NCBI RefSeq assembly: GCF_016863015.1
Contig: NZ_BOOB01000017.1
Location: 124,001 to 188,000, forward strand
DNA from: Microbispora amethystogenes
GTDB taxonomy: Bacteria > Actinomycetota > Actinomycetes > Streptosporangiales > Streptosporangiaceae
Length of the DNA: 64,000 nt
Direction of reading: 5' to 3'
Shown here: positions 734-45,211 of the stretch, in pieces
How positions within the stretch are numbered: the stretch's first letter is position 1
How the letters are laid out: each line of letters begins with the position of its first letter
Program-made: the position numbers and the translations under genes
Notes under the pieces: model-generated
Database searches by the model: none
What the model was told of the DNA's origin: nothing
What the model saw: the letters and a program-made list of their open reading frames with translations, nothing else

Positions 734-1341
734 TCGGCCCCCTCTACGCCGAGTCGCTGGACGGCGCACGGATCGACGTCGAGGCGGCCGACGGCAGGAC
801 GTGGCCGCTGGAGTCGTGGCGCTGGCTCGACGGCGCCGAAGGGGACGAGGCCATGCTGGCCCGCTGCGGCGACCCCACGCTCGACGTGGGCTCCGGCCCC
901 GGGCGGCTCACAGTGGCGCTGACCCGGCGCGGGGTGGGGGCGCTCGGCATCGACGTCACGCCCCGGGCCGTCCGCCTCACCCGCCTGGCCGGCGGGCGGG
1001 CCCTGTGCCGTGACGTGTTCGGGCACGTGCCGGGCGGCGGGCGCTGGGCGACGGTGCTGCTGGCCGACGGCAACATCGGCATCGGGGGGGACCCCGAGGC
1101 CCTGCTGCGGCGGGCCCGCGAGCTGCTGCGGCCCGGTGGCGAGGTGGTCGCCGAGCTCGGCCCTCCCGGCACCGCCACCCGCTCGGAGCGGGTCAGGCTG
1201 CGCCGGGACGACACGGTCACCGGGTGGTTCGCCTGGGCCCGCGTCGGGGCGGACGGCATCGGCCCGCTCGCCCGGCGTACGGGCTTCGGCCGCGCGGAGG
1301 TGTGGACCGAGGCGGGACGCTGGTTCTGCGTCCTCGGCTGA
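730..1341 (+). CDS. Class I SAM-dependent methyltransferase
   Basis: A 203-residue protein starting at GTG 730, whose start overlaps the preceding TGA by four bases (translational coupling). SAM motif I is LDVGSGPGRLTVAL (about residues 50-63), followed by the acidic end of strand 2 in GIDVTPRAV and by LLADGNIGIGG in the position of motif II/III. Substrate is unknown. Linkage to DUF2064 and probably a glycosyltransferase is a conserved actinomycete arrangement, so a role in modifying a glycosylated metabolite or envelope lipid is plausible but unproven. Confidence 0.85.
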   Translation: MIGPLYAESLDGARIDVEAADGRTWPLESWRWLDGAEGDEAMLARCGDPTLDVGSGPGRLTVALTRRGVGALGIDVTPRAVRLTRLAGGRALCRDVFGHVPGGGRWATVLLADGNIGIGGDPEALLRRARELLRPGGEVVAELGPPGTATRSERVRLRRDDTVTGWFAWARVGADGIGPLARRTGFGRAEVWTEAGRWFCVLG

Positions 1342-1369
1342 GAGTTCCCCCAGAACGCAGGCTCGTGGC

Positions 1370-2242
1370 TCAGGCGGCGACGACGCCGGCGCCCGTGGCG
1401 GCGAGGAGCAGGACGTCGATCCCCGCGGCGGCGATCGCGGCGGCGAAGGGCGCCCTGGGCAGGCGCCGGCCGAGCGCCAGACCGGCCGCCGCGCACCCGG
1501 CCACCCCGGCGAGGGCGAGCCACTCCGCCGGGCCGGGCGGGCCAGGCGGTGCGACGACCAGCAGCAGGGACGCCGCCAGCGGCGGCACCGGCATCAGCGC
1601 CCTGACCCGGGCCTCGCCGAGCCGCTGGGGCCAGCCCCGCACGCCCGTCGCCAGGTCCGTCGCGATGTCGGGCAGCACGTTGCCGAGGTGCGCTCCGCAG
1701 CCGAGCAGCGCCGCCGCGAGCACGGCCCACCACGCGGGCAGGGGCGGGCCGTCATGGTGGGCCGGCATGCCCCCCGCCACGAACACCGGCACGGCGCCGA
1801 ACCCGATCGCGTACGGCGCCCACGACGCGGCCGTGCCCTTCAGCCACAGGTTGTAGGCCCAGGCCGCGGCGACGGCGAGCAGGTGCGCCGCGGCCGGCAG
1901 CGGCCCGCAGGCGAGCGAGAGCGGCACGCACGCCGCCAGCGCCGTGAAGGCCGCGGCGCGCACCGTGCCCGCGGTCACCAGGCCGGCGACGATCGGCTTG
2001 CCGGTCCGCCCGGCCGCGGCGTCCCTGGCGGCGTCCACGGCGTCGTTGCACCAGCCCACCGAGAGCTGGCCGGTCAGCACGGCGAGCGCCACCGGCGCCG
2101 CCCCCGCGAGGCCGCGCCCGGCGAGCACCACGAGCGCCGTGACCAGAACCGTGACCGCGACGGCCGGGCCCGGATGGCACGCGCGGGCCAGCCCGGCCAC
2201 CTGCCGCGGCCCGTCGCCGGGGAGTGCTCTGGAGCAGGTCAT
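1370..2242 (-). CDS. UbiA-family prenyltransferase
   Basis: A 290-residue, multi-spanning membrane protein. The first Asp-rich region appears as GWCNDAVDAARDAAAGRTGKPI (an N/DxxxD-type diphosphate-Mg site) and the second as NVLPDIATDLATGVRGWPQRLG (DxxxD). Both are hallmarks of UbiA aromatic prenyltransferases. I start it at ATG 2242 (MTCSRALPGD), because upstream in-frame sequence is low-quality antisense of the PKS. It is divergent from the type III PKS operon with only about 100 bases between starts. It may therefore prenylate the phenolic product of that operon or make a related quinone; this is inference from position. Confidence 0.85.
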   Translation of the reverse strand: MTCSRALPGDGPRQVAGLARACHPGPAVAVTVLVTALVVLAGRGLAGAAPVALAVLTGQLSVGWCNDAVDAARDAAAGRTGKPIVAGLVTAGTVRAAAFTALAACVPLSLACGPLPAAAHLLAVAAAWAYNLWLKGTAASWAPYAIGFGAVPVFVAGGMPAHHDGPPLPAWWAVLAAALLGCGAHLGNVLPDIATDLATGVRGWPQRLGEARVRALMPVPPLAASLLLVVAPPGPPGPAEWLALAGVAGCAAAGLALGRRLPRAPFAAAIAAAGIDVLLLAATGAGVVAA

Positions 2243-2256
2243 CGTGACGAGCGTAA

Positions 2257-2269
2257 CCGGATGATCCGG
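2257..2269. promoter_or_regulatory. Inverted repeat in the UbiA/PKS divergent promoter
   Basis: CCGGA-TGA-TCCGG forms a short perfect dyad in the 100-base gap between the UbiA and PKS starts. It could be an operator, but it is short and GC-rich, so chance is likely. Confidence 0.25.
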
Positions 2270-2342
2270 GTTGGGAGGTATGTGAGCCGCCTGGACGGGC
2301 AAGAGTGCAGGTAGTTTCCTCCGCCAGCCAGTGGGATGTGAG

Positions 2343-3431
2343 ATGACGCGGATCGCGGCCGTCCATGGTGTCCTTCCTCCCCATCGCCACTCCCAGAAGG
2401 AGATCACGGACACGCTGGCGCGGGTCTGCCTCCCTCCGGGCGCCGACCGCCGGCTCCTCGACCGGCTGCACGCGAGCGCGCGGGTGGAGCACCGCAACCT
2501 CGTGCAGCCGCTCGACCGGTACGGCAAGCTCGACGGCTTCGGCATGGCCAACGACCTGTTCATCGAGGCCGCCCTCGACCTGGGCGCGGAGGCCGTGACC
2601 GGCGCGCTCGACGCCGCCGGCCTCACCCCGGCGGACGTCGACATGATCATGTGCACCTCGGTCACCGGCGTCGCCGCGCCGTCCCTGGACGCCCGGCTGG
2701 CCAACCGCATCGGGCTGCGTCCCGACGTGAAGCGGGTGCCGGTGTTCGGCCTCGGCTGCGTGGCGGGGGCGGCGGGCATCGCCCGGCTGCACGACTACCT
2801 GCGCGGGTGGCCCGGCCATGTGGCGGTGCTGCTCTCGGTCGAGTTGTGCTCCCTCACCCTCCAGCGCGACGACTCCTCCACGGCCAACCTCGTCGCCGGC
2901 GCGCTGTTCGGTGACGGCGCCGCCGCCGTGGTCGCGTACGGCGACGACCGTGACATCCCCGGCCGTGACATCCCTGAGCTCCCCGGGGGACGGCCGGACC
3001 CGGCCGTCGTCGCCACCCGCAGCCGCCTCTACCCCGGCTCGGAACGGGTGATGGGGTGGGACGTCCGCGACAGCGGGTTCCGGGTCGTCCTCGACGCCGG
3101 GGTGCCCGACGTGGTGCGCACCCACCTCGCCGGAGACGTGGGCGGGTTCCTCGGCGACCACGGCCTGGACGTCGGCGACATCACCGCGTGGGTGTGCCAT
3201 CCCGGCGGCCCCAAGGTGCTGGAGGCGGTCGCGGAGACGCTCGCGCTGCCGGAGGGCGCGCTCGACCTCACCTGGCGCTCGCTCGCCGCCATCGGCAACC
3301 TGTCGTCCGCGTCCGTGCTGCACGTGCTGCGGGACACCCTGGCCCTGCGGCCACCACCGCCGGACACCCCGGGGATGCTCCTGGCGATGGGCCCGGGATT
3401 CTGCTCCGAGCTCGTTCTGCTGCGCTGGTGA
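2343..3431 (+). CDS. srsA: Type III polyketide synthase, SrsA-like (alkylresorcinol/phenolic lipid synthase)
   Basis: A 362-residue chalcone-synthase-superfamily homodimer-type enzyme. The Cys-His-Asn triad is visible: Cys139 in [11 protein letters not shown], His286 in CHPGGPK and Asn319 in GNLSSASV. Such enzymes condense an acyl-CoA starter with malonyl or methylmalonyl-CoA. The next two genes are an ICMT-like methyltransferase and a FAD hydroxylase, the same order as the Streptomyces griseus srsABC operon that makes methylated phenolic lipids and alkylquinones. I therefore assign alkylresorcinol synthesis by context. ATG 2343 is preferred; GTG 2331 in frame would add four residues. Confidence 0.88.
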
Positions 3432-3486
3432 ATGCACTGGTGAAGGGGGGCCGGCGGGAGCCGGCCGGGAGGGATGGAGGGGACCG

Positions 3487-4041
3487 ATGTCGCCCTGGTA
3501 CGCGGTGCTCGTCGCGCTCGTCGGCGTGGAGCGCCTCGCGGAGCTGTTCGTGGCGCGCCGCAACGCCCGCTGGAGCATGGAGCGCGGCGGGGTGCTGTAC
3601 GGCGCCGGGCACTATCCCTGGATGGTGGCCCTGCACACCGGCCTGCTCGCCGGGTGCCTGCTGGAGGCGGCGCTGGCGGACCGGCCGTTCGTCCCGGCCC
3701 TGGGCTGGCCGATGCTGGCGCTCGTCCTGGCCGCGCAGGGGCTGCGCTGGTGGTGTGTCACGAGCCTCGGCCACCAGTGGAACACCCAGGTCATCGTCGT
3801 GCCCGGCCTGCCGCTCGTGACGCGTGGGCCGTACCGGCTCGGGTGGCTGCGGCACCCCAACTACGTCGCCGTGGCGGTGGAGGGCGCCGCCCTGCCGCTC
3901 GTGCACTCCGCGTGGCTGACCGCACTGGCCTTCACCCTGCTCAACGTCCCGCTCATGGTCGTCCGCCTGCGGTGCGAGAACGCCGCTCTCGCGACCGCCG
4001 CCCCGGCCGCCGCTCCCGGTTCCCTGCGGCACGCTCAGTGA
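3487..4041 (+). CDS. srsB: ICMT-like phospholipid/phenol methyltransferase, SrsB-like
   Basis: A 184-residue integral membrane protein with four to five hydrophobic segments. The C-terminal SAM-binding region typical of isoprenylcysteine carboxyl methyltransferases reads GPYRLGWLRHPNYVA (RHPxY motif) preceded by LGHQWNT. In srsABC operons the equivalent protein O-methylates the alkylresorcinol. It lies 55 bases after the PKS, and its TGA overlaps the GTG of the FAD gene by four bases, so the three genes form one operon. No peptide-prenylation gene is nearby, so a CaaX role is unlikely. Confidence 0.88.
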   Translation: MSPWYAVLVALVGVERLAELFVARRNARWSMERGGVLYGAGHYPWMVALHTGLLAGCLLEAALADRPFVPALGWPMLALVLAAQGLRWWCVTSLGHQWNTQVIVVPGLPLVTRGPYRLGWLRHPNYVAVAVEGAALPLVHSAWLTALAFTLLNVPLMVVRLRCENAALATAAPAAAPGSLRHAQ

Positions 4042-5099
4042 TCGACGTACTGGTGGCCGGAGGCGGGCCGGCGGGGCTGGCCACGGCCATCCACGCGGCG
4101 CTGGCCGGCCTGGAGACGGTCGTGGTCGAGCCGCGGGCCGTCCCGGTCGACAAGGCGTGCGGGGAGGGTCTGATGCCCACCGGCGTCGCCGCCCTCGCCG
4201 GTCTGGGGATCGACCCCAAGATCGCGCTGCCGGAGAGCAGGCCGTTCCTGGGCATCCGCTACGTCGACGGGCGGCACCGGGTGCAGGCGGAGTTCCGGGA
4301 CGGCACCGGGCTCGGCGTGCGGCGCACCGCGCTGCACGCGGCCCTGGCCCTGCGCGCCCGGGAGGCCGGAGTCCGGGTGGTCTCCGGGCGGGTCGCCGGC
4401 GTGCGCGCCGGTGACGACGACGTGCACGCGCGGGTGCCGCCCTCCGGTGGCGTCCCGGGCGGTCTCGATCTGCGGGCGCGGTGGCTGGTCGCGGCGGACG
4501 GCCTGCACTCGCCGATCAGGGCGTCCCTCGGGCTGGACCTGCCCGCGGGCGGCCCCCGCCGGTACGGCCTGCGCCGCCACTACCGGGTGACGCCGTGGAC
4601 CGACTTCGTGGAGGTGCACTGGGCGCCGGACGGCGAGGCGTACGTCACCCCGGTGGGCGACGACCTCGTCGGCGTGGCCGTGCTGAGCGGCGAGCGCCGG
4701 GGATACCACGAGCACCTCGCGGCGTTCCCGGACCTGCTCGCCCAGCTGGACGGGCCGCCCGCCACCCCGGTGCGCGGAGCCGGGCCGCTGCGCCAGCGGG
4801 TCCGCCGGCGGGTGGCCGGGCGGGTCCTGCTCGTGGGCGACGCCGCGGGCTACGTGGACGCGCTCACCGGCGAGGGCCTGTCGCTCGCGCTGCTGTCGGC
4901 CCGCGCGCTGGTCGGCTGCCTGCGCGCCGGCCGACCCGAGGAGTACGAGGCCGCCTGGCGGCGCCTGTCGCGGCGGTCCCGGCTGCTCACCGCCACGCTG
5001 CTGGAGGCGCGGCGGCACCCCCCGGCGGCCCGGATGATCGTGCCGGCCGCCCGGCGGTTGCCGGTGCTGTTCCGCGCCGCCGTCCGATCGCTCGCCTGA
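4038..5099 (+). CDS. srsC: FAD-dependent monooxygenase, SrsC-like
   Basis: A 353-residue flavoprotein of the aromatic hydroxylase/geranylgeranyl reductase superfamily. The N-terminal Rossmann motif is VLVAGGGPAGLATAIHAALAG with the ribose-binding Glu in VVVEP. DGLHSPIR is the mid-protein DG motif, and GRVLLVGDAAGYVDALTGEG is the GD motif that contacts FAD. In srs-type operons the flavoprotein hydroxylates the methylated resorcinol ring, giving a hydroquinone that oxidises to a quinone. The alternative is a lipid saturase of the geranylgeranyl reductase group; operon context favours the hydroxylase. Confidence 0.85.
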   Translation: MIDVLVAGGGPAGLATAIHAALAGLETVVVEPRAVPVDKACGEGLMPTGVAALAGLGIDPKIALPESRPFLGIRYVDGRHRVQAEFRDGTGLGVRRTALHAALALRAREAGVRVVSGRVAGVRAGDDDVHARVPPSGGVPGGLDLRARWLVAADGLHSPIRASLGLDLPAGGPRRYGLRRHYRVTPWTDFVEVHWAPDGEAYVTPVGDDLVGVAVLSGERRGYHEHLAAFPDLLAQLDGPPATPVRGAGPLRQRVRRRVAGRVLLVGDAAGYVDALTGEGLSLALLSARALVGCLRAGRPEEYEAAWRRLSRRSRLLTATLLEARRHPPAARMIVPAARRLPVLFRAAVRSLA

Positions 5100-5340: not shown

Positions 5341-6054
5341 TTGCCTGACTTCGCGATACTCGCCCTGTTCGCGTCACTCGGCGCGCTCCCCGTCGCCGCG
5401 CTGGCGATCCTGGCTCTCCGGCTGCGCCGGCTGCGCGCCATGCAGGCCGAGGCCGTCCGCCAGGCCGCGGCCGAGGCCCGGGAGCAGTTCGGCCGGGACG
5501 TGCACGACCTCGTGAGCAGCCGGCTGTGGCTGGCCACCCTGCGCAGCGAGCTCGCCTACCGCCTCGCCGAGGAGGACAACCCGCTGCGGCCCGCCCTGGC
5601 CGACGTGGTGCAGGCGATCCGCCAGGCCGCCGCGGACATCCGCAACGTGACCCGCTCGTTCCAGGACGTCTCGCTGCCGTCGGAGCTGGCCAACGCGCGT
5701 GCCGTGCTCCGCGCATACGGGACCGACTGCAAGATCGAGGTGACCGACGCGGAGCTCTCGGACGAGATCGGCGCGACGCTCGCCATCATGGTGCGCGAGG
5801 CCGTGACCAACGTCGTGCGGCACAGCCGGGCGACCCTGTGCGTCATCGAGATCGCCCTGCGCGCTAGCACGGTGACGCTGACCGTGGCCAACGACGGCGT
5901 CGACCCCTCCGCCCCGTCCGGCGCCGGCAGCGGCCTGGACAACCTCCGCACCCGCGCGGCCGCGCTCGACGGCGTCGTGGGAACGGTCCTCGACCCCGAC
6001 GGCTGGTTCCGCCTGGTCGCCGAGATCCCCAGCAGGGGCAACATCCGCCGCTGA
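5341..6054 (+). CDS. NarL-type histidine kinase flanking the lanthipeptide cluster
   Basis: A 237-residue short sensor kinase. TTG 5341 is the start, supported by GGAGG nine bases upstream. Residues 3-27 form one hydrophobic N-terminal segment with almost no extracytoplasmic sensor. His55 lies in the dimerisation box FGRDVHDLVSSRLWLA of the HisKA_3 type. The ATPase domain follows, with the N box VREAVTNVVRHSRA and the G-rich box GSGLDNLRTRAAALDG. No response regulator is adjacent. The nearest unpaired one is the LuxR-type regulator at the far end of the lanthipeptide cluster (13084-13740), so I infer that they form a pair. Confidence 0.88.
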   Translation: MPDFAILALFASLGALPVAALAILALRLRRLRAMQAEAVRQAAAEAREQFGRDVHDLVSSRLWLATLRSELAYRLAEEDNPLRPALADVVQAIRQAAADIRNVTRSFQDVSLPSELANARAVLRAYGTDCKIEVTDAELSDEIGATLAIMVREAVTNVVRHSRATLCVIEIALRASTVTLTVANDGVDPSAPSGAGSGLDNLRTRAAALDGVVGTVLDPDGWFRLVAEIPSRGNIRR

Positions 6055-6129
6055 GCGGACGGACCGCTCCAAAGCACTCCACGCCTCCTTCGGCATCCCC
6101 CCGCGCTCTTGACCTGCCGTTTGACAGAT

Positions 6130-6150
6130 GACCTCACCGCGACCTCACCC
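6130..6150 (+). promoter_or_regulatory. Direct-repeat operator candidate upstream of lanKC
   Basis: GACCTCACC occurs twice with an 11-base period (6130-6138 and 6141-6149), just after a consensus-like TTGACA at 6121. The 15-mer ACCGCGACCTCACCC (6136-6150) recurs exactly upstream of the cluster's response regulator (13787-13801). A shared binding site for that regulator is the simplest reading. Confidence 0.5.
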
Positions 6151-6212
6151 GCGGCCTCCCGGTGACCGTGGAGAGCGTCACCACCTGACCCGTGACCGCG
6201 TCATGGTTCGTT

Positions 6213-6229
6213 ATGTGCAGATTTCACAT
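6213..6229. promoter_or_regulatory. Inverted repeat in the lanKC promoter region
   Basis: ATGTG-N7-CACAT is a perfect five-base dyad in an AT-richer stretch about 80 bases before the GTG start of lanKC. A TTGACG lies just downstream at 6237-6242. It may be an operator or promoter element. Confidence 0.3.
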
Positions 6230-6308
6230 GGCGCAGTTGACGGGCGTAACTTGGCCCGTCCCCGCAATTCCGGAATTCTTACTTGTGACCGGCCTAAGGG
6301 GACATCTG

Positions 6309-8954
6309 GTGATTAGTAAGTACGAGATTTACTGCCTCGCAGATCCCTTGTTCTACGACACCCTCGACAGCAAGCGCGCGGAGCATCCGGATTTCTCCGT
6401 GGCCGCGCGGCCCACCCCCGAGGGGTGGGCGCATCTCGCGACCGGAACGTGGCTGCACTACGCGCCGGCCGGCGCCACGTTGCCCACCCAGGGCTGGAAG
6501 ATCCACATCTCCTCCTCCGTACGGGAGGCGGAGCGGGTGATCGCCGCGGCGTGGGACTACTGCGTGCCCCGCGGGCTGGCCTTCAAGTTCCTGCGCGGCC
6601 GGCGCGTGATGACCATGCAGAACTCCAAGTACGCCTTCCGGGGGTCGAGCGGCAAGCTGGTCACCGTCTACCCGGTCGACGAGGCCCAGCTCGAGCTGAC
6701 GCTCAAGGAGCTGGCCGAGGTCCTCGACGGCGTCGAGGGCCCGTACATCCTCAGCGACCTGCGCTACGGCGACGGACCGATGTACGTGCGGTACGGCGGG
6801 TTCGCCGAGCGCCACTGCCTCGACGAGAGCGGCGAGCAGGTCCTCGCGATCGAGAACGCCGACGGCGAGCTCGTCCCCGACGTGCGCGGCCCGGGGTTCT
6901 CCCTGCCCTCCTGGGTGCCCCTGCCGGCCTTCCTCGAACCCCACCTGGCCGCGCGCAACGCCGTGACCATGGAAGGCGTGCCGTACCAGGTCGACAGCGT
7001 CCTGCACTTCTCCAACGGCGGCGGCGTCTACCTCGCGCACGACACACGCACCGGTGAGAAGGTGGTGCTGAAGGAGGCGCGCCCGCACGCCGGCCTCGAC
7101 GTGGAGGGACGCGACGCGGTCACCCGCCTCCGGCACGAGGCCGAGATCATGGAGCGCCTCGCCGGGCTGGACTGCGTCCCCCGCCTGCACAGCCACTTCA
7201 CCGTCGGGGAGCACCACTTCCTCGCGCAGGAGTACGTCGACGGCACCTCGCTCAGCCAGCTCATCGCGCAGAAGCACCCCCTCACGCGGGCCGACCGCAC
7301 GCCGGAGATGAGCACGGACTACGCGGAGTGGGCCGTCACGATGCTCGGCAAGGTGCGGGCGGCGGTCGCGGCCCTGCACGAGCGCGGCGTGGTGTTCGGC
7401 GACCTGCACCCCTTCAACATCCTCGTCGACGGCGACCGGGTGGTGCTGATCGACTTCGAGGTCTCCTCGCCGGTCGAGGAGCGCAGACGGCCCACACTGG
7501 CCAACCCCGGCTTCGTCCCGCCGAGCGGCCTCGCCGGCGTCGAGGCCGACGAGTACGCCCTGGCCTGTCTGCACCTCGGGATCTTCGCCCCGATGACCAC
7601 CATGCTGCTGCAGCTCCACCGGCCCAAGGCCGCCCAGCTCGGCAGGCTGGTGAAGGAGACGTTCCCGGTGCCGCCCGAGCTGATCGACGGCGCGGTGGCG
7701 ACGCTCCTCGGCGACACGACCGGCGTGCACTCCGCCGTCCATTCCGCCGTCCATTCCGCCGTCCATTCCGCCGAGCCGGAGCCGAGCCGGCTCTCCGAGG
7801 GCTGGCCCGCGCTCCGGGACGCCCTGGCGACGGCGATCCTCGCCTCGGCGACGCCGGGGCGCGACGACCGGCTGTTCCCCGGGGACATCGTCCAGTTCGA
7901 GCCCGGCGGCGGCGTGAGCCTCGCCAACGGCGCGGCCGGCGTGCTCTACACGCTGGCCGCGACCGGGGCCGGGCGCTTCCCCGAGCACGAGGAGTGGCTG
8001 GTCAGGCGGGCGGCGGAGCCCGGCATCGGGATCGGCTTCTACAACGGGCTGCACGGCGTGGCGTACGCGCTGGAGGAGCTCGGCCGGCGCGAGGACGCGC
8101 TCGGCGTGGCCGAGCGGTGCCTGCGGGAGCCCTGGGAGGGGCTCGACCTCAGCCTCTACCGCGGCCTGTCCGGCGTGGCCCTCGCCCTGATGCGCCTGCA
8201 CGACGCGACCGGCGAGCCCGAGTTCCGCGAGCGGGCCGCGCGCGTCGTCACCGCGGTGGCCGACCGGCTCGGCGGCCCGGACGACGTCCCCGAGATCAGC
8301 GGAGGCAGGTATCCGCACGCGGGGCTGATGTACGGCTCGTCGGGGCCCGCCCTGATGTTCCTGCACGCCTACGAGCGCACCGGCGACCCCGGTCTGCTCG
8401 ACCTCGCGGCCACCGCGCTGCGCCAAGACCTGCGCCGGTGCGTCGGCCGCGAGGACGGGCAGCTCCAGGTGCAGCAGGGCTGGCGGACCAACCCCTACCT
8501 GGACGAGGGGTCGGCCGGCATTGGGCTGGTGCTCGACCGCTACCTCGCTCACTGTGAGGACGACGACTTCGCCGGGTCGCTGGCGGCCATCCGGTCGGTG
8601 CTGACCCTTCCGTACTACGTCCAGTCGGGGCTGTTCGCCGGCCGGGCGGGCATGATCGCCTGCCTGTCGTCCGGCTCGCGCCCCGACCCCGGGGCCGCCG
8701 AGGCGCAGATCGCCCGGCTGGCCTGGCAGGAGCTTCCGTACCAGGGCGGGCTGGCCTTCCCCGGGGCCCAGTTGCTCCGCCTGTCCATGGACTTCGCCAC
8801 AGGGAGCGCCGGCGTGCTGTTCGCGCTCGGCACCGCGCTGCACGACGAGCCGGTCCGCCTCCCGTTCCTTGAACCCCCCGGACGGTCCCAGGCGCAGGCC
8901 CCCCTGCGTACCGCCGCCGGGTCGCATGTCCCGACCAGCCCCGGAAGGAGGTGA
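6309..8954 (+). CDS. lanKC: Class III lanthipeptide synthetase LanKC (RamC/AmfT-like)
   Basis: An 881-residue three-domain enzyme that phosphorylates Ser/Thr of the precursor, eliminates phosphate and cyclises onto Cys. It starts at GTG 6309, with AAGGGGA seven bases upstream. The N-terminal lyase domain opens with YEIYCLADPLFYD and has LPTQGWKIHIS, hallmarks of LanKC. The kinase domain has Lys255 (VVLKEA), Asp365/Asn370 in FGDLHPFNILV and Asp382 in IDFE. The C-terminal LanC-like domain starts near residue 530 (GAAGVLYTL, GLHGVAYAL). It lacks the Cys-Cys-His zinc ligands: the expected site reads YPHAGLMYGSSG. That makes it class III, not class IV. A variable HSAV repeat links kinase and cyclase. 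The stop lies six bases before lanA1. Confidence 0.95.
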   Translation: MISKYEIYCLADPLFYDTLDSKRAEHPDFSVAARPTPEGWAHLATGTWLHYAPAGATLPTQGWKIHISSSVREAERVIAAAWDYCVPRGLAFKFLRGRRVMTMQNSKYAFRGSSGKLVTVYPVDEAQLELTLKELAEVLDGVEGPYILSDLRYGDGPMYVRYGGFAERHCLDESGEQVLAIENADGELVPDVRGPGFSLPSWVPLPAFLEPHLAARNAVTMEGVPYQVDSVLHFSNGGGVYLAHDTRTGEKVVLKEARPHAGLDVEGRDAVTRLRHEAEIMERLAGLDCVPRLHSHFTVGEHHFLAQEYVDGTSLSQLIAQKHPLTRADRTPEMSTDYAEWAVTMLGKVRAAVAALHERGVVFGDLHPFNILVDGDRVVLIDFEVSSPVEERRRPTLANPGFVPPSGLAGVEADEYALACLHLGIFAPMTTMLLQLHRPKAAQLGRLVKETFPVPPELIDGAVATLLGDTTGVHSAVHSAVHSAVHSAEPEPSRLSEGWPALRDALATAILASATPGRDDRLFPGDIVQFEPGGGVSLANGAAGVLYTLAATGAGRFPEHEEWLVRRAAEPGIGIGFYNGLHGVAYALEELGRREDALGVAERCLREPWEGLDLSLYRGLSGVALALMRLHDATGEPEFRERAARVVTAVADRLGGPDDVPEISGGRYPHAGLMYGSSGPALMFLHAYERTGDPGLLDLAATALRQDLRRCVGREDGQLQVQQGWRTNPYLDEGSAGIGLVLDRYLAHCEDDDFAGSLAAIRSVLTLPYYVQSGLFAGRAGMIACLSSGSRPDPGAAEAQIARLAWQELPYQGGLAFPGAQLLRLSMDFATGSAGVLFALGTALHDEPVRLPFLEPPGRSQAQAPLRTAAGSHVPTSPGRR
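7731..7766 (+). repeat. 12-bp tandem repeat inside lanKC
   Basis: TCCGCCGTCCAT is repeated three times and followed by a partial fourth copy, encoding the peptide repeat SAVH in the linker between the kinase and cyclase domains (about residues 475-490). The unit length keeps the reading frame, so copy-number change would only alter linker length. Confidence 0.9.
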
Positions 8955-8960
8955 ATCGCA

Positions 8961-9086
8961 ATGGCGCTTCTCGACCTGCAGACCCTCGAGGCCCCCGGTG
9001 GCCACGGTGGCGGCGGCGGCAGCAACCTCAGCCTGCTCGCCTGCACCCCGCACGAGAACAGCAGCCTCAGCCTCATCTGCGGCTGA
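8961..9086 (+). CDS. lanA1: Class III lanthipeptide precursor 1 (RamS/AmfS-like)
   Basis: A 41-residue precursor from ATG 8961, with a strong GGAAGGAGG ribosome site inside the 3' end of lanKC. The leader begins MALLDLQTLEAP, the LxLQ-type motif bound by LanKC, and passes into a Gly-rich spacer (GGHGGGGG). The core carries two ring motifs, SNLSLLAC (SxxSxxxC) and SSLSLIC (SxxSxxC), separated by TPHEN and ending in Gly. SapB from RamS has the same two-ring layout. It differs from the other two precursors by Ala for Gly before the first Cys and SLIC for SIIC. Two rings, lanthionine or labionin, are predicted. Confidence 0.93.
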   Translation: MALLDLQTLEAPGGHGGGGGSNLSLLACTPHENSSLSLICG

Positions 9087-9157
9087 CGCACCCGCTCGAC
9101 CCCACTTCCGGGGTGAACCATCCAGGCAGTGAACCATCCCAAAGGGAGATGATCCAC

Positions 9158-9289
9158 ATGGCGCTTCTCGACCTGCAGACCCTCGAGGCCCCCACCGGTG
9201 GCGGCGGCGGTGGCACCCAGGGCAGCAACCTGAGCCTCCTCGGCTGCACCCCGCACGAGAACAGCAGCCTGAGCATCATCTGCGGCTGA
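9158..9289 (+). CDS. lanA2: Class III lanthipeptide precursor 2 (RamS/AmfS-like)
   Basis: A 43-residue precursor from ATG 9158, with AAAGGGAG as ribosome site. Its leader has the same first 12 residues (MALLDLQTLEAP), then TGGGGGGTQG. The core rings are SNLSLLGC and SSLSIIC, joined by TPHEN. The core is identical to that of precursor 3, so both genes should give the same mature peptide if the leader is fully removed. An in-frame ATG three codons upstream lies directly on the ribosome site and is unlikely to be used. Confidence 0.93.
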   Translation: MALLDLQTLEAPTGGGGGGTQGSNLSLLGCTPHENSSLSIICG

Positions 9290-9327
9290 CGGCACCTCGC
9301 TCAACCCGACCTGCTCGACCCGACTTC

Positions 9328-9390
9328 CGGCACCGTGTTCCAACACCGGTTCCAACACCGGTTCCAACACCGTGTTGCAGCACGGTGCCG
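9328..9390. repeat. Palindrome-bounded repeat element between lanA2 and lanA3
   Basis: CGGCACCGTG (9328-9337) and CACGGTGCCG (9381-9390) are perfect 10-bp inverted ends. They enclose three tandem copies of GTTCCAACACCG (9337-9372). A nested hairpin, CACCGTG-N6-CACGGTG, occupies 9368-9387. Apart from this element, the lanA2 and lanA3 upstream regions align closely (ACTTCCGG before it and AACCATCCAGGCAG after it). It therefore looks like an insertion into a duplicated leader region. Confidence 0.85.
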
Positions 9391-9439
9391 GGTCAACCAT
9401 CCAGGCAGCGAACCATCCACGCAAAGGGAGATGATCCAC

Positions 9440-9574
9440 ATGGCGCTTCTCGACCTGCAGACCCTCGAGATCCCCGGCGGCCACGGCGGCGGCGGTGGCA
9501 CCACGGGCAGCAACCTGAGCCTGCTGGGCTGCACCCCGCACGAGAACAGCAGCCTGAGCATCATCTGCGGCTGA
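9440..9574 (+). CDS. lanA3: Class III lanthipeptide precursor 3 (RamS/AmfS-like)
   Basis: A 44-residue precursor from ATG 9440, with GGGAG at the proper distance (an in-frame ATG at 9431 abuts the ribosome site). The leader is MALLDLQTLEIP followed by GGHGGGGGTTG. The core rings SNLSLLGC and SSLSIIC are identical to those of precursor 2. The upstream sequence AAAGGGAGATGATCCACATG is also shared with precursor 2, indicating a recent tandem duplication. Confidence 0.93.
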   Translation: MALLDLQTLEIPGGHGGGGGTTGSNLSLLGCTPHENSSLSIICG

Positions 9575-9606
9575 CAGTCGCGGCTGCTGACGCATGAAGC
9601 GAAGGT

Positions 9607-9631
9607 CTGGGCGGTCGTCGCGGCCGCCCAG
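9607..9631 (+). terminator. Hairpin between lanA3 and the exporter genes
   Basis: CTGGGCGG-N9-CCGCCCAG forms an eight-base perfect stem 33 bases after the lanA3 stop. It lacks a T run, so it is more likely a partial terminator or 3'-end stabiliser that keeps precursor mRNA above exporter mRNA than a full stop. Confidence 0.45.
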
Positions 9632-9679
9632 GCTTCCGCGTTTCCGGGCTGAAGGCGTTTCGGGACTGGAGGACCCCTG

Positions 9680-11401
9680 GTGAGTTCCCGTACGGCGGAC
9701 CTGCTGATCGCGCGGGCCGTCCGGCGCGGCGGTCCCTGGCTCGCGGTGCTGACGGTGACGGCGCTGGCAGGCGCCGCGGCCGACCTGCTCGTCCCGGCGG
9801 CGCTCGGCCGCGCGCTCGACGCCGTCGTGCGCGCCTCCCCCGACCTCCCGGAGACGGTCGCCGCCGCCGCGCTGCTGGCCGGGCTCGTCGTCGTGTGCGA
9901 CGCGCTGGGCGTGCTCGCCGCGGGGGTGAGCGGCGCGCGGGCCGCCCGGTGGCTTCGCACCCGGGTCGTGACCCACACCCTGTCGGCCGGCACCGGGATG
10001 ACCCGGCATCTCGCGCCCGGGGAGATCGTCACCCGCGCCGGCGTGAACGTCGAGGAGGCGGGGCGGACCCCGGAGGCCGTCGTGACGGCCGCCACTCTGG
10101 TCATCCCGTCGGCCGGCAGCGTCGTCGCCCTCGCGCTGATCGACCCGTGGCTCGCGGTCACGCTGGTGGCCGGCCTGCTGCTGATCGTGGCCGTGCTGCG
10201 CGCGTTCATGCGGAAGACCACCGCGGCCTCCGGCGGCTACCAGGAGGCGCAGGGCCAGATCGCGGGCATGCTCGTCGGGGCGCTCGCCGGGGCCCGCACC
10301 ATCAGCGCGGCCGGCACGGAGGACCGCGAGGCCGCACGGGTGCTGGCCCCGCTCCCCCGGCTGCGCGCCCACGGCCTCGCGCTGTGGCGGCTGCAGGCGC
10401 GGGCCGGTGTGCAGGCCGCCGTCGTCGTCCCGCTCCTGGAGATCGCGGTGCTCGCCGTCGGCGGGCTCCGCCTGTCGGCGGGCGGCCTCACCGTCGGCGA
10501 ACTGCTCGCCGCCGCACGCTACGTCGTGCTCGGCGCGGGCCTCGGATCGGCGCTGGGCTACGCCGCGCGCATCGCCCGCGCCCGATCGGCCGCGCAGCGC
10601 CTGGAGCAGCTTTTCGCCGTGCCGCCCCCGGCGTACGGATCCCGCCCGCTGCCGCCGGGCCCGGGGACCCTGGAACTGCGTGACGTGACCGTACGGGCCG
10701 ACGGGGTCCAGCTGCTGAGCGGGATCAGCTTCGTGGTGCCGGGAGGCACCTGCACGGCGGTGGTCGGCCGCTCCGGCTCGGGCAAGTCGTCGCTGGCCGC
10801 CGTCGCCGGTCGGCTCGCCGACCCCGAGCGGGGCGTCGTGCTGCTGGACGGCGTGCCGCTGCGGGAGCTCGCCAGGGAGCCGCTGCGGCGCGCGGTCGGG
10901 TACGCCTTCGAGCGCCCGGCCCTGTTCGGCCGCACCCTGGGCGAGGCCGTCGGCTTCGGACTCCCGGCTCACGACGAGAACGACGAGAACACGGTGCGGG
11001 CCGCCGCCGTCGCCGCCTGCGCCGACCCGTTCGTCCGCAGGCTGCCCCTCGGGTACGCCACACCGGTCGAGGACGCGCCGATGTCCGGGGGCGAGATCCA
11101 GCGGATCGGCCTCGCCCGCGCGTTCGCCCAGGCCGGGCGGGTGCTGATCCTGGACGACGCCATGTCGAGCCTCGACACGGTGACCGAGCGGCAGGTCGGG
11201 CGCGCGCTCACGGGCAGCCTGGCCGACCGCACCCGCCTGGTGGTGGCCCACCGGGTGACGACCGCGGCCCAGGCCGACCAGGTCGTGTGGCTGGAGGACG
11301 GGCGGGTCCGCGCGATCGGCACGCACGAACGGCTGTGGGCCGATCCCGGCTACCGGGCCGTCTTCCAGGCGCCCGTCTTCCAGGAACAGGAGGCGTCGTG
11401 A
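9680..11401 (+). CDS. ABC exporter, fused permease-ATPase (RamA/AmfB-type)
   Basis: A 573-residue half transporter with an N-terminal six-helix membrane domain (about residues 15-310) and a C-terminal ATPase. Walker A is VGRSGSGKSS, the signature is MSGGEIQRIGLARAFA, Walker B is VLILDDAMSSLD, and the switch His lies in VVAHRVTT. It starts at GTG 9680 after CTGGAGG. The next exporter gene overlaps its stop by four bases, so the two should assemble as a heterodimer. Position after the precursors matches ramA/ramB of the SapB cluster, so export of the modified peptide is the likely role. No peptidase domain is present, so leader removal needs another protease. Confidence 0.92.
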   Translation: MSSRTADLLIARAVRRGGPWLAVLTVTALAGAAADLLVPAALGRALDAVVRASPDLPETVAAAALLAGLVVVCDALGVLAAGVSGARAARWLRTRVVTHTLSAGTGMTRHLAPGEIVTRAGVNVEEAGRTPEAVVTAATLVIPSAGSVVALALIDPWLAVTLVAGLLLIVAVLRAFMRKTTAASGGYQEAQGQIAGMLVGALAGARTISAAGTEDREAARVLAPLPRLRAHGLALWRLQARAGVQAAVVVPLLEIAVLAVGGLRLSAGGLTVGELLAAARYVVLGAGLGSALGYAARIARARSAAQRLEQLFAVPPPAYGSRPLPPGPGTLELRDVTVRADGVQLLSGISFVVPGGTCTAVVGRSGSGKSSLAAVAGRLADPERGVVLLDGVPLRELAREPLRRAVGYAFERPALFGRTLGEAVGFGLPAHDENDENTVRAAAVAACADPFVRRLPLGYATPVEDAPMSGGEIQRIGLARAFAQAGRVLILDDAMSSLDTVTERQVGRALTGSLADRTRLVVAHRVTTAAQADQVVWLEDGRVRAIGTHERLWADPGYRAVFQAPVFQEQEAS

Positions 11402-13182
11402 GGCGGCGGGTCGTCCTGGACGCGCTGTGGCGCGAGCCGTCCCGGCTGCTGCGGCTGGCCTGCTGGTCGGTGGCGGAAGCCCTGCCCTCGCTGACCGGCG
11501 GGTACGCCGTCGCACGCGCGGTGGACGACGGGTTCGTGGCCGGCCGGCCCGGCCTCGGGATGGCCTGGCTCGGGGTCCTCGCCGCCGCGTGGGCGGTGGC
11601 CGCGGTGTCCGCCCGGCAGGTGCTGCTGCTGATCGCCGGCATCGTCGAGCCGTTCCGCGACGACCTGCTCAGGCGGGTGGTGACCGGGGCGCTGCGGGCC
11701 GGGCGGGGCGGCGACAGCGCGGCCGTCGCCCGGATGAACCATCAGGTCGAGCTGGCCAGGGACTCCTTCGGCGCCATCATCACGGTGGTCAGGTCGTTCG
11801 TGTTCACGCTGGTCAGCGTGGCAGTGGGGCTGTCGACCCTGGCGCCCGCCGTGGTGCCGCTCGTGCTGCCCCCGGTGGCCCTCGGGCTGGGCCTGTTCCT
11901 CGTCTCCCTGCCCTCGCTCGCCCGGCGGCAGCGGGAGTTCATCGTCGCCGACGAGCGTACGGCGGCCGCCGTGGCCGCGATGGCGAGCGGACTGCGCGAC
12001 GTGACCGCCTGCGGCGCGGAGGAGCGGGTCGCGGCCGAGGTCGGGCAGGCGGTGGCCCGGCAGGCGGCGTCCGCGCGGGCGCTCGCCCGGGTGACCGCGA
12101 CGCGGACGCTGTCACTGGCGGTGGGAGCGTGGCTGCCGGTCGTGCTGCTGCTCGCGGGCGCGCCCTGGCTCGTCCGCCAGGGGATCACCGGCGGGGTGAT
12201 CCTCGGCACGCTGACCTACGTGATGCAGTCGCTCGCCCCCGCGCTGGGCGGCCTGGTGCAGGGCCTCGGCGTCAGCGGCGTACGCCTCGCCGTCACGCTG
12301 GAGCGCATCCTGCACGTGCCCGGGCAGCCGGCTCTGCATGGCGACACCGAGCCGGACAGCGCCCGCCTGGTGCTGCGGGGCGTCCGCTTCGCGTACGGCG
12401 CCGCCGGCCGGAAGGCCCCCGAGCCGGTCATCGACGGCCTGGACCTCGACGTGCCGGAGGGCGACCACCTGGCCGTCGTCGGCCCGAGCGGGATCGGCAA
12501 GTCCACGCTGGCCGCGCTGGTCGCCGGCCTGCTCACGCCGGACGAGGGCGAGGTCCTCGTCGGCGGCGTCCCGGCCGCCCAGGTCCGCCCGGCCGCCCGC
12601 GCGCTGATCCCCCAGGAGGCGTACGTCTTCCCCGGCACCCTGGCCGAGAACCTGACCTATCTCGCGCCCGGCGCGACGCCGGAGCAGGTGGACGAGGCGG
12701 TCGCGGCGTTCGGGCTCACGGACCTCGCACAGCGCTGCGCGGGCGGCCCGCTCGACCCGGCCGAGCTGTCGGCGGGCGAACGGCAGCTGGTCGCGCTGGC
12801 CAGGACGTACCTGTCCCCCGCCCGGCTGGTCGTGCTCGACGAGTCGACCTGTCACCTCGACCCGGCGGCGGAGGCGCGGGCGGAGGCCGCGTTCGCGGCG
12901 CGCGGCGGGACGCTGGTCGTGGTGGCCCACCGCATCTCGTCGGCCCTGCGCGCCAGGCGGGTGCTCGTCATGGACGGCACCCGGGTCAGGCTCGGCTCCC
13001 ACGAGGAGATGGTGGCCGCGTCACCGCTGTACGCCGACCTCGTGGGCCACTGGACCGGTCACCGGGCCGGCCGGAGCGAGGAGCTACCGGCGGGGGCGGT
13101 AGCGGAGGATGCCGATGTCACGCCCGGCCGACGGCCAGAGCCAGCCGCACTCGGAGGCGATCTGAATCGCCTCGACGCGTGA
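11398..13182 (+). CDS. ABC exporter, fused permease-ATPase (RamB/AmfA-type)
   Basis: A 594-residue half transporter from GTG 11398, translationally coupled to the first exporter gene. Membrane helices occupy about residues 20-310. Walker A is VGPSGIGKST, the signature is degenerate (LSAGERQLVALART) and Walker B is RLVVLDESTCHLD. The Ser-Ala-Gly signature and the Ser after the Walker B Asp-Glu differ from the partner, typical of heterodimeric exporters. The last 33 codons (13084-13182) lie antisense to the end of the response regulator gene, so the C-terminal tail beyond the ATPase fold may be dispensable. Confidence 0.92.
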   Translation: MRRRVVLDALWREPSRLLRLACWSVAEALPSLTGGYAVARAVDDGFVAGRPGLGMAWLGVLAAAWAVAAVSARQVLLLIAGIVEPFRDDLLRRVVTGALRAGRGGDSAAVARMNHQVELARDSFGAIITVVRSFVFTLVSVAVGLSTLAPAVVPLVLPPVALGLGLFLVSLPSLARRQREFIVADERTAAAVAAMASGLRDVTACGAEERVAAEVGQAVARQAASARALARVTATRTLSLAVGAWLPVVLLLAGAPWLVRQGITGGVILGTLTYVMQSLAPALGGLVQGLGVSGVRLAVTLERILHVPGQPALHGDTEPDSARLVLRGVRFAYGAAGRKAPEPVIDGLDLDVPEGDHLAVVGPSGIGKSTLAALVAGLLTPDEGEVLVGGVPAAQVRPAARALIPQEAYVFPGTLAENLTYLAPGATPEQVDEAVAAFGLTDLAQRCAGGPLDPAELSAGERQLVALARTYLSPARLVVLDESTCHLDPAAEARAEAAFAARGGTLVVVAHRISSALRARRVLVMDGTRVRLGSHEEMVAASPLYADLVGHWTGHRAGRSEELPAGAVAEDADVTPGRRPEPAALGGDLNRLDA

Positions 13183-13740
13183 GCGGGCGCCCACCTTGCC
13201 GAGGATGCGGGACATGTAGTTGCGCACGGTGCCCTGCGACAGGGACAGGCGGGCGGCGATCTCGCAGACGGTGGCCCCTCCGGCGGCGGTCTCCAGGACG
13301 TCCAGCTCGCGAGCGGTCAGCGGGTTGCTGTCGGCGTCGAGTGCCGCCACGGCCAGTTCGGGGTCGATGACCCGCTCCCCCGCGGCCACCCGGCGGATGC
13401 AGTCGATGAGATGGGCCGGGGAGGCGTCCTTCACCACGTAGCCGCGCACGTTGGCGTCCAGGGCCTTGCGCAGGGCCGTGGGCGTGCCGAGCCCGGTGAG
13501 CACGACGGTCTTGCAGGAGGGTAATCGGCGGTGCAGCTCGGCCGCCGCGGTGAGGCCGTCGACGCCGGGCAGCCCGATGTCGAGCACCGCGACGTCGGGG
13601 CGCCGCAGACAGCCCAGCCGCACGATGTCCTCCCCCTTGTCCGCCTCGGCCACGACCTCCAGGTCGTCCTCGCTCGACAGCAGAGCGACCAGCGCCTTGC
13701 GGATGAGGTGCATGTCCTCGGCGAGCATCAGTCGGATCAA
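13084..13740 (-). CDS. LuxR/NarL-family response regulator (RamR/AmfR-like)
   Basis: A 218-residue regulator. I start it at TTG 13740 because the receiver fold then begins normally (IRLMLAEDMHLIRKAL) and GGGAG lies six bases upstream. Longer in-frame starts add an unrelated 37-residue tail. The receiver has acidic pocket Glu8/Asp9, phosphoacceptor Asp54 (VAVLDIGLPG), Thr in VVLTG and Lys in YVVKDAS. The DNA-binding helix-turn-helix reads LTARELDVLETAA ... SQGTVRNYMSRILGK. It sits where ramR/amfR sits relative to SapB-type operons, but converges on the exporter genes and overlaps them by 99 bases. It probably activates lanKC and pairs with the kinase at 5341. Confidence 0.9.
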   Translation of the reverse strand: MIRLMLAEDMHLIRKALVALLSSEDDLEVVAEADKGEDIVRLGCLRRPDVAVLDIGLPGVDGLTAAAELHRRLPSCKTVVLTGLGTPTALRKALDANVRGYVVKDASPAHLIDCIRRVAAGERVIDPELAVAALDADSNPLTARELDVLETAAGGATVCEIAARLSLSQGTVRNYMSRILGKVGARSRVEAIQIASECGWLWPSAGRDIGILRYRPRR

Positions 13741-16434: not shown

Positions 16435-18294
16435 TCAGCCCTCCGCGTACAGTTCCTCGATCAGGTCGGCGTACCTGGCGTGCACGACGCGGCGCTTGAG
16501 CTTGAGGCTCGGGGTGAGCTCCTCGGTCTCGGCCGTCCACTCGACCGGCAGCAGCCGCCACCGCTTGACCTGCTGCACCCGGGCGAGCTTGCGGTTGGCG
16601 GCCTCCACCGCCGCCTCGATCTCCTTGAGCAGGTCCGGATGCCCGGCCAGGTCGGCGAGTGACTCGAAGGCGATGCCGCGGGCGCGCGCCCACTCGGGGG
16701 CGACCTCCCCGTCGAGGGTGAGGATCGCCACGGGGTACGGCCGTCCCTCGCCGTAGGCGAGTGCCTGCCCGATGAGCGGGTGCTCCTTGAGGTGGCCCTC
16801 GATGCCGGCCGGGGAGACGTTCTCCCCTCCGGAGGTGATGAACAACTCCTTCTTGCGGTCGACGATGCGGACGAACCCGTCCTCGTCGATCGACCCCACG
16901 TCGCCGGTGTGCAGCCAGCCGTCGGCGTCCAGCAGTTCGGCGGTCGCCTCGGGCAGGCCCAGGTAGCCCCGGGTGTTGAGCGGGCTGCGAGTGAGGATCT
17001 CGCCGTCCTCCGCCACCCGCACCTCCACGCCGGGCTCGGCCCGTCCCACCGTGCCGAGCCGGAAGACCTCCGGGCTGTTGACCGTGAAGGCGCCGGTCGT
17101 CTCGGTCATGCCGTAGACGTCGATCACCTTCAGGCCCAGACCGCCGAAGAAGCGCTGCACCTCCGGCGGCATCGGCGCGGCGGCGGTGGCGCACCAGCGG
17201 GCCCGGTCGAGCCCGATCAGGCCGCGGATCAGCGACAGCAGCGCGGCGTCCGCCCGCTCGTACGCCTCCCGCACCTCGGACGAGACCGTGTGGCCGTACT
17301 GCTGCCCCTCGATGTAGGCGAGCCCGGCGGCCATCGCGGCGCGGACGTTCTCCTGCTGGTCGGCGGGCTGGGAGGCCAGCAGCGCCTGCAGCCGGGCGGC
17401 CATCTTCTCCCAGACGCGGGGCACGCCGAAGAACAGCACCGGGCGCACCTGGCCCAGCGTCGTGGCGAGCGCGTTCAGGTCCGTGCAGAAGTACACGTGG
17501 TTGACCTTGAACAACGGCAGGTACAGGCTGAGCGCCCGCTCGGCGATGTGGGCGTAGGTGAGATAGGAGATCTGAGTCCCCTGCTCGGGCAGGTCGATCA
17601 TCCGCTGCGTCGCCGCGATCTCGAAGAGCACGTTCGCGTGGGTGAGCGGGACGCCCTTGGGCATGCCGGTCGTGCCCGAGGTGTACAGCACGCTGAGGAC
17701 GTCGTCCGGGGCCACCTCCCGCGAGCGCCGCTCGACCGCCTCCGGGTCGGCGGCGTACGCCCGCGCGCCGATCGTCAGGAAGTCGTCCCAGCTCATGAAG
17801 CGGTCGTCGCCCTCTGGGGCGCCCTCCAGCATGATGATCCTGGTCAGCCCGGGCAGCTCACCGAACACGGGCGCCCAGCGGGCCAGGTCGCCGGGGCCGC
17901 CGAGCACCGCGATGCGCGCCCCGACGTCCCGGGCGACGTACGCGACCTGCTCGGGGGCGAAGGTCGCGTAGATGGAGCAGGAGACGGCGCCCGCGTGGAC
18001 GGCGCCGAGGTCGGCCAGCACGTGCTCGCTCCGGTTGACCAGCATCAGCGCGACCGCCTCACCCGGCCGCAGGCCGAGCGCGGCGTAGCCGGCGGCGATC
18101 TCCAGCACGCGCCGCCGCGCCTCGGCGTACGTCAGCGTGCGCCAGCCGCCGGCTGCGTCGGAATCGGAGGGGGCGGGATCGGAGTAGGCGGGCACGTCCG
18201 GGTGCTCCTGCGCGGCCCATCTGAGCTGTTCGCAGAGGGTCCTGCCCGCGATTTCGCGTTCGATCGCGGCCCGCTCCTCGAGAACACCGGCCAT
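16435..18294 (-). CDS. Long-chain acyl-CoA synthetase (AMP-binding, FadD15-like)
   Basis: A 619-residue adenylate-forming enzyme that activates long-chain fatty acids to acyl-CoA. The ATP loop is LYTSGTTGMPKGVPLTH (around residue 190). The A5 motif is YGMTETTG, the A7 motif is HTGDVGSIDEDGFVRIVDR and the hinge/A8 is KKELFITSGGENVSP. ATG 18294 is chosen because GGGAGG lies four bases upstream and the protein then begins with the family's usual AIEREIAGRTLCEQL region; longer starts add 22 residues. It is divergent from the POT transporter. It could supply acyl-CoA starters for the type III PKS, but the genes are not linked. Confidence 0.92.
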   Translation of the reverse strand: MAGVLEERAAIEREIAGRTLCEQLRWAAQEHPDVPAYSDPAPSDSDAAGGWRTLTYAEARRRVLEIAAGYAALGLRPGEAVALMLVNRSEHVLADLGAVHAGAVSCSIYATFAPEQVAYVARDVGARIAVLGGPGDLARWAPVFGELPGLTRIIMLEGAPEGDDRFMSWDDFLTIGARAYAADPEAVERRSREVAPDDVLSVLYTSGTTGMPKGVPLTHANVLFEIAATQRMIDLPEQGTQISYLTYAHIAERALSLYLPLFKVNHVYFCTDLNALATTLGQVRPVLFFGVPRVWEKMAARLQALLASQPADQQENVRAAMAAGLAYIEGQQYGHTVSSEVREAYERADAALLSLIRGLIGLDRARWCATAAAPMPPEVQRFFGGLGLKVIDVYGMTETTGAFTVNSPEVFRLGTVGRAEPGVEVRVAEDGEILTRSPLNTRGYLGLPEATAELLDADGWLHTGDVGSIDEDGFVRIVDRKKELFITSGGENVSPAGIEGHLKEHPLIGQALAYGEGRPYPVAILTLDGEVAPEWARARGIAFESLADLAGHPDLLKEIEAAVEAANRKLARVQQVKRWRLLPVEWTAETEELTPSLKLKRRVVHARYADLIEELYAEG

Positions 18295-18462
18295 CGTGCC
18301 TCCCACCGGGTATGTCGCACGCGTGGCCTGCATCGCATCACAGCGGATCACCGAGGACAAGACTCCGCGGGCGGGGAGCGCACGAAAGCGTCATCTCAAA
18401 CGGACAAACAGGACATAAAGGCATATAAAGTTGCTGAGATGATGCGTGATCGGGGGGTACGC

Positions 18463-19968
<1,506 letters not shown>

Positions 19969-41733: not shown

Positions 41734-42335
41734 TCAGAGCCAGCCCTGCGCCTGGGCCTTCCGCACGGCCTCGATGCGGTTGCGCGCCCCGGTCTTCTGG
41801 ATGGCCGCCGACAGGTAGTTGCGCACGGTGCCCTCCGACAGGTGCAGCCGCAGCGCGATGTCGTTGATGGTCGAGCCGTCCGCGGCGGCCGACAGCACGT
41901 CCCGCTCGCGCGGCGACAGGGGGTTCGGCCCGGCGCTGAGCGCCGCGGCGGCCAGCCCGGGGTCGATCACCCGCTCGCCCCGGAGCACCCGCCGGAGGGC
42001 GGCGGCCAGGTCGCGCGCCGGGCTGTCCTTGACCAGGAACGCCACCGCCCCGGCCTCCATCGCCCGGCGCAGGTAGCCGGGCCGGCCGAAGGTCGTGAGG
42101 ATCACCACCCGGCACCCGGGGACCCGCCGGCGCAGCTCCTCGGCGGCGGCGATGCCGTCCCTGCCGGGCATCTCGATGTCCAGCAGCGCGATGTCCGGCC
42201 GGGTCGCCTCCGCGACCGCGACCGCCTCGTCGCCGTTCGCCGCCTCCCCGACCACCTCGATGTCGGGCTCCAGGCCGAGCAGCGAGGCCAGCGCGCCCCT
42301 GACCATGCTCTGGTCCTCCGCCAGCACGACCCTGA

Positions 42336-42339: not shown

Positions 42340-43505
<1,166 letters not shown>

Positions 43506-43532
43506 CGCGTCGTCCCTCCGCTCCCCGACGGG

Positions 43533-45157: not shown

Positions 45158-45211
45158 GCCGACAAAACTAGAAGCGGGCCGGGAAGGGCGGCAGTGGGAT
45201 GCCTCCGGCCT

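Follow-up and report, generated by a model that had tools for sequence, protein, structure and literature searches.

A SapB-type class III lanthipeptide cluster of Microbispora amethystogenes flanked by a histidine kinase and a RamR-type regulator with an intact receiver

The window analysed here is a 64,000-nucleotide stretch of DNA from the soil actinomycete Microbispora amethystogenes. Its positions 5341 to 13740 hold a SapB/AmfS-family class III lanthipeptide cluster with a histidine kinase (HK) gene at one end and a response regulator (RR) gene at the other. From left to right the genes encode the HK, the lanthionine synthetase LanKC, three precursors, two ATP-binding cassette (ABC) half-exporters and a convergent NarL-type RR, whose minus-strand gene overlaps the end of the second exporter gene by 99 bp (Table 1). 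The gene order, strands and coordinates of the initial annotation are borne out by the gene calls and profile matches.

Table 1. Features of the Microbispora cluster in window coordinates
Feature	Position	Strand	Evidence
Histidine kinase (HisKA_3 and HATPase-like; 237 amino acids from TTG; His55)	5341..6054	+	profile matches
Conserved promoter region of lanKC (predicted)	6187..6308	+	alignment of the window and 18 relatives
Candidate operator of the RR, dyad CCCRTGAC-N3/4-RTCAYGG	6189..6206		19/19 near loci; exact pattern in 12/14 genomes
LanKC class III lanthionine synthetase (lyase-kinase-cyclase)	6309..8954	+	NF038151, RamC_N
lanA1 precursor, core from first Ser SNLSLLACTPHENSSLSLICG	8961..9086	+	NF033212, PF19402
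lanA2 precursor, core from first Ser SNLSLLGCTPHENSSLSIICG	9158..9289	+	NF033212
lanA3 precursor, core same as that of lanA2	9440..9574	+	NF033212
ABC half-exporter 1 (ABC_membrane and ABC_tran)	9680..11401	+	Pfam
ABC half-exporter 2 (ABC_tran; N-terminal half without Pfam match)	11398..13182	+	Pfam
NarL/RamR-type RR (receiver and GerE), intact receiver residues	13084..13740	-	Pfam, residue alignment

The cluster and its precursors

LanKC scores 1092 bits on the class III model NF038151 (cut-off 575) and 413 bits on the class IV model, below the cut-off of 650, which places it nearer class III than class IV. Its RamC_N match is 270 bits. The ram/amf gene set of LanKC, precursor, two ABC half-exporters and convergent NarL regulator is complete. 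Gene content and order are those of the ram/amf clusters; therefore the kind of cluster is already known, and its biosynthetic parts are ordinary. The regulator is where it departs from the ram/amf type, which is marked by an orphan regulator with a degenerate receiver, whereas here a kinase is present and five receiver residues are intact.

All three precursors match the SapB/AmfS model NF033212 with 55-57 bits (cut-off 25), and lanA1, the only precursor given to Pfam, also matches RamS (PF19402) with 50 bits. These matches and the gene order agree with the earlier description of the locus as class III, SapB-type and ram/amf-like. The precursors share the leader MALLDLQTLE and carry an SxxSxxxC and then an SxxSxxC ring motif, as first read. 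From the first Ser on, the second and third precursors have the same core, which leaves two distinct cores among the three. If cleavage falls before the first Ser, the predicted monoisotopic masses after loss of four waters are 2085.998 for lanA1 and 2071.982 for lanA2 and lanA3, although further Ser/Thr residues may be dehydrated too. The same ring spacing, 3 then 2, occurs in 55 of 179 surveyed precursors when Thr is allowed for Ser. A PF19402 search of the 8.13 Mb genome gave nothing over the cut-off beyond these three precursors, and promoter and terminator scans over 8900-9700 found none.

Two tandem repeats of 12 bp were seen in the operon. One is in frame within lanKC (4.5 copies, 7720-7773), between the kinase and cyclase parts, and the other (3.4 copies, 9331-9372) separates lanA2 from lanA3. 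By eye (10680-12900), Walker B reads Asp-Asp in the first exporter and Asp-Glu in the second, which suggests an asymmetric exporter that may have one degenerate ATP site. The genome also has a second LanKC-like frame (G000:C53:24647-25795; L002, L233) with 36% identity over residues 40-420 only.

LanKC matches at E<=1e-150 occur in 14 of 15 genomes of the genus, its own included, so the cluster is not there by chance; the nearest named relatives of the locus are Microbispora. At E<=1e-120, 179 of the 297 genomes sampled from the family have a match, as do 46 of 296 from the class, a sample that overlaps that of the family. The proposal of an undescribed system is right only in part, given the curated SapB/AmfS family and this presence in the genus.

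For comparison, 37 named loci and 100 hand-chosen regions gave 137 loci, or 124 non-redundant ones after removal of 13 duplicates, with the window excluded. Coded genomes take their genus names from loci identical to named ones, and family f18 is called Streptomyces-like on account of its SapB-type precursors. Precursors, counted by a regular expression that may undercount them, number one in 76 loci, two in 30, three in 13, four in one and none in four. The 13 other Microbispora loci have one precursor (two loci), two (nine) or three (two), Streptosporangium loci have up to four, and the f18 loci have a single one in 15 of 15. Three precursors had been thought to set the cluster apart, a trait rejected here since 120 of the 124 loci have 1-4. 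According to the accessible part of PMC7268733, 57% of class III precursors stand alone in their cluster, so many others do not.

Kinase and receiver in related clusters

The HK matches HisKA_3 over the cut-off, and its HATPase_c_2 match of 23.5 bits is just below the cut-off of 27.4. It has one predicted transmembrane (TM) helix and no recognised sensor domain. In the survey, an HK was called at >100 bits within 2.5 kb upstream of LanKC and an RR at >150 bits within 8 kb downstream. An HK lies directly upstream of LanKC in 52 of the 124 loci, all in the same family. These include Microbispora (13/13), Planotetraspora (4/4), Sphaerimonospora (2/2), Streptosporangium (11/13) and genus g4, which is Nonomuraea-like by its precursors (12/12); the remaining loci belong to nine smaller groups. 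An HK was not found upstream of LanKC in Sphaerisporangium (0/9), named Streptomyces (0/3) or family f18 (0/15), and the adjacent kinase does contrast with the Streptomyces-like clusters as had been supposed. Among the 116 loci complete on both sides, 48 have both HK and RR, 42 an RR without HK, 23 neither and 3 an HK without RR.

All 52 cluster-linked HKs retain the H-box His and the N-box Asn, and 47 of them the Gly that opens the second G-box. By hydropathy only, 15 HKs (g4, g65, g68 and Nonomuraea harbinensis) have a long N-terminus with at least two predicted TM helices, and the other 37, including those of Microbispora, Planotetraspora and Streptosporangium, are cut to about one. Relocation of the kinase elsewhere in genomes whose cluster has no HK was rejected. 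Eleven such genomes were searched, nine gave matches at E<=1e-26, and 0 of 22 distinct unlinked HKs fall inside the cluster HK clade (support 96, starred); a weaker, more diverged copy would escape this search.

The RR has E8, D9, D54, T82 and K104 (numbered from the TTG at 13740). This set of acidic pair, Asp, Thr/Ser and Lys is full in 47 of 48 HK-linked cluster RRs, compared with 3 of 44 HK-less ones, with the window included and identical sequences counted once. HK-paired RRs sampled elsewhere keep it in 38 of 38 cases by letter counts. In the HK-less cluster RRs, Thr/Ser is kept in 9/44 and Lys in 30/44. The three with an intact set are those of L083 and L084 and one of the two RRs at L138. 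L083 and L084 are Streptosporangium-type clusters without an HK, in which an RR of a different type with an intact receiver occupies the usual place, an apparent regulator replacement. Relatedness inflates the Fisher p for this association (2e-21), which is not taken as proof. The pattern is consistent with receiver integrity following the kinase, and is not statistically decisive.

The two proteins also seem to share a history. The kinase tree has 84 members. Its 45 cluster HKs group together in a single clade (93), to which HKs of non-cluster pairs are sister (86), and the RR tree places the cluster RRs with the regulators of those same pairs (90). Over 45 loci, with three divergent ones left out and with points that are not independent, HK distance correlates with RR distance once LanKC is controlled for (partial r 0.75), and the partial r of RR and LanKC distances given HK is -0.01. 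Although one lies at each end of the cluster, the HK and the RR are grouped by their trees with the same adjacent HK-RR pairs elsewhere. These trees and distances suggest that kinase and regulator evolved as a single pair, whose members sit at the two ends of the cluster. They show the matching subfamilies and joint divergence of a cognate pair, on few independent changes. Near non-cluster relatives of the pair in two Streptomyces-like loci (L223, 6903-10536; L226, 6345-10662) adjoin a YcaO gene, hinting that the subfamily may serve more than one peptide system.

Proposed control of the cluster and its alternatives

The 122 bp before lanKC are conserved in an alignment of the window and 18 relatives. 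In each of the 19 Microbispora, Planotetraspora and Sphaerimonospora loci they contain an 18-19 bp dyad, CCCRTGAC-N3/4-RTCAYGG, located at -119 to -121 with a score of 13/16 or more. The exact form precedes lanKC in 12 of the 14 cluster-bearing Microbispora genomes and occurs at 11 other sites combined in the 15 genomes searched, where the control gives one match; the own genome has five sites, versus one match of the reversed control. At a score of at least 13/16 and anywhere in 300 bp, the dyad is found in 20 of 52 loci with an HK and in 7 of 72 without. A strong copy before the LanKC gene of N. typhae is only suggestive. Another copy is on contig C9; about 1.4 kb separates it from an orphan RamR-like regulator, and no gene is recognised in that interval. 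The dyad as a general RamR-box was considered and is unsupported outside the three genera.

The kinase-regulator pair probably activates a morphogen of the SapB kind, and RamR of the Streptomyces line has probably been left without a kinase and with an incomplete phosphorylation site. The three precursors, which are almost identical, would be dehydrated and cyclised by LanKC to give two different amphipathic peptides. The ABC pair would export these, and their most likely site of action is the hyphal surface during aerial growth. The one-TM kinase is predicted to phosphorylate the receiver Asp of the convergent RamR-type regulator. The phosphorylated RR may then bind the dyad about 120 bp before lanKC and turn the operon on. 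The RamR/AmfR type of Streptomyces would descend from a kinase-paired regulator that later went without the kinase and part of the phosphorylation site. A wider version of this proposal is speculative and, as it stands, unlikely. It takes the pair for an ancestral dedicated phosphorelay over SapB-type morphogens, kept in Streptosporangiaceae and dismantled in Streptomyces, where RamR became a pseudo-receiver; the sensorless one-helix kinase of Microbispora might read the membrane or peptide export, giving an autoinducing morphogen circuit.

Several results weigh against control by a kinase-regulator pair. The phospho-Asp is still kept in 36 of the 44 HK-less RRs, and the HK-linked RR of L092 has a changed acidic residue. 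Only four independent row pairs differ in HK on the LanKC tree. Without L083 and L084 the receiver changes the same way in three pairs, the other way in none and shows no difference in one (sign test p 0.25); with them the counts are two, none and two (p 0.5). RR presence as such does not track the HK (same 1.1, other 0.2, no difference 2.7). Of the three loci with an HK and no RR call, one has an RR past the fetched stretch and two are without an RR in the available sequence. RR branching is unstable between trees, and HK and LanKC distances given RR also correlate (0.63). As for the dyad, most Streptosporangium and Nonomuraea-type loci are without it, and its three occurrences with 2 mismatches in the window are near chance (shuffled sequence gives 1.42 on average, and 3 is reached in 21 of 100 shuffles). 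The motif was also derived from the same loci in which it is counted, so the counts show fixed position and rarity, not binding.

It can be suggested tentatively that a ram-type cluster of Streptosporangiaceae instead took up the HK and RR together, already paired, in place of an older orphan RamR, and that Streptomyces never had the kinase. One RR tree puts seven HK-paired non-cluster RRs with the orphan RamR type and not with the HK-linked cluster RRs (90). However, when seven divergent rows are left out, all cluster-linked RRs and two unlinked RamR-like ones form one clade (92, not starred). In the LanKC tree, the lineages g38 and f19, which lack an HK and have degenerate RRs, branch within HK-bearing ones, partly on weak branches. 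Against recruitment, clusters with and without an HK alike have the convergent RR behind the exporters.

A lanthipeptide whose main role is antimicrobial or signalling, and not that of a surface-active morphogen, is rather unlikely. Signalling would fit with the two distinct cores and the sensor kinase, and class III lanthipeptide products have varied activities. However, the precursors are of the SapB/AmfS family in a ram-like gene order, the cluster is present in nearly all genomes of the genus, and no immunity gene is among the genes scanned, although no search aimed at immunity genes was made. It is very doubtful that the kinase is a bystander controlling the type III polyketide synthase genes or another regulator, with an RR that acts without phosphorylation as reported for S. 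coelicolor RamR: the kinase does lie at the cluster edge, about 7 kb from the RR and about 240 bp after a flavin adenine dinucleotide (FAD) oxidoreductase gene adjoining a type III polyketide synthase, but the HK directly precedes LanKC also where that oxidoreductase is not found within 10 kb, for example in Streptosporangium, its presence tracks receiver integrity, and RR divergence follows the HK, not LanKC.

The genes at 730-5099 encode a methyltransferase, the type III polyketide synthase (2331-3431) and the geranylgeranyl-reductase-type FAD oxidoreductase (3474-5099), and are probably a separate small polyketide cluster. Among the 37 named loci, the oxidoreductase is near the HK in 10 Microbispora and 3 Planotetraspora loci only.

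Comparison with known systems

Catenulipeptin has the same SxxSxxxC/SxxSxxC ring motifs. The cores of catenulipeptin and of other labionin or lanthionine class III peptides differ from those of Microbispora, in which the rings are predicted from the motifs.

RagK/RagR belongs to the S. coelicolor rag cluster, which is in the RamR regulon according to the accessible text of PMC9739842. Like the Microbispora pair, it consists of a HisKA_3 kinase and a RamR-like regulator; the rag pair adjoins an ABC transporter gene in that text. Rag-like pairs are separate from the cluster pairs, with their own clade in the RR tree (99, starred) and in the HK tree (97, bar one row). These pairs were named by context only (an ABC ATPase upstream in 2 of 2 examined; no S. 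coelicolor sequence compared), and on this basis the Microbispora HK and RR are not orthologs of RagK/RagR. The window itself has a second homologous two-component pair on the minus strand (RR 41734-42339, HK 42336-43505), which adjoins an ABC ATPase gene (44273-45223) in a rag-like layout over 41734-45223. The RRs of this pair and of the cluster share 52% identity.

The SapB-type clusters of Streptosporangium and Nonomuraea have the HK, RR, LanKC, precursors and exporters, as in Microbispora. They differ in a prolyl oligopeptidase gene beside the exporters (three genomes checked), and Nonomuraea-type kinases differ in keeping a multi-TM N-terminus. Prolyl oligopeptidases are known class III leader proteases (PMC10885120, accessible part). 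In Streptosporangium L045 the gene (16639-18789) lies between the second exporter and the RR; it is also beside the cluster in another Streptosporangium-type genome and in one g4 genome. The clustered gene is an extra copy in two Streptosporangium genomes and one g4 genome. The genomic prolyl oligopeptidase of Microbispora was rejected as a relocated cluster protease, since 8 of 8 genomes carry a copy (62-64% identity). There is no room for a protease gene in the cluster of the window, so the Microbispora leader protease is presumably encoded elsewhere.

The closest known systems are ramCSAB-ramR of Streptomyces coelicolor, which makes SapB, and amf with amfR of S. griseus, which makes AmfS. 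Both share LanKC, precursor, exporters and convergent regulator with the Microbispora cluster, as judged from the f18 clusters, and each has one precursor. Compared with them, the Microbispora cluster has a kinase, an intact receiver and three precursors. RamR is an orphan regulator in the accessible text of PMC9739842. The part of PMC12632262 that is accessible counts it among atypical regulators whose dimers form without phosphorylation, with the Asp serving dimer formation instead. A search of the literature, confined to open-access papers, yielded no account of a SapB-type cluster with a paired kinase. As far as the accessible text of PMC4255298 goes, a 2013 survey confined ramR to streptomycetes; RamR-type regulators at the same place in many non-streptomycete genera extend that survey. 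Clusters with a kinase and an intact receiver are a candidate ancestral circuit for orphan RamR control, and the kinase-regulator pair makes the evolution of this control testable. The comparison with ram and amf raises the question of whether phosphorylation controls a SapB-type morphogen in Microbispora, Streptosporangium and Nonomuraea, and what Streptomyces changed when the kinase was lost.

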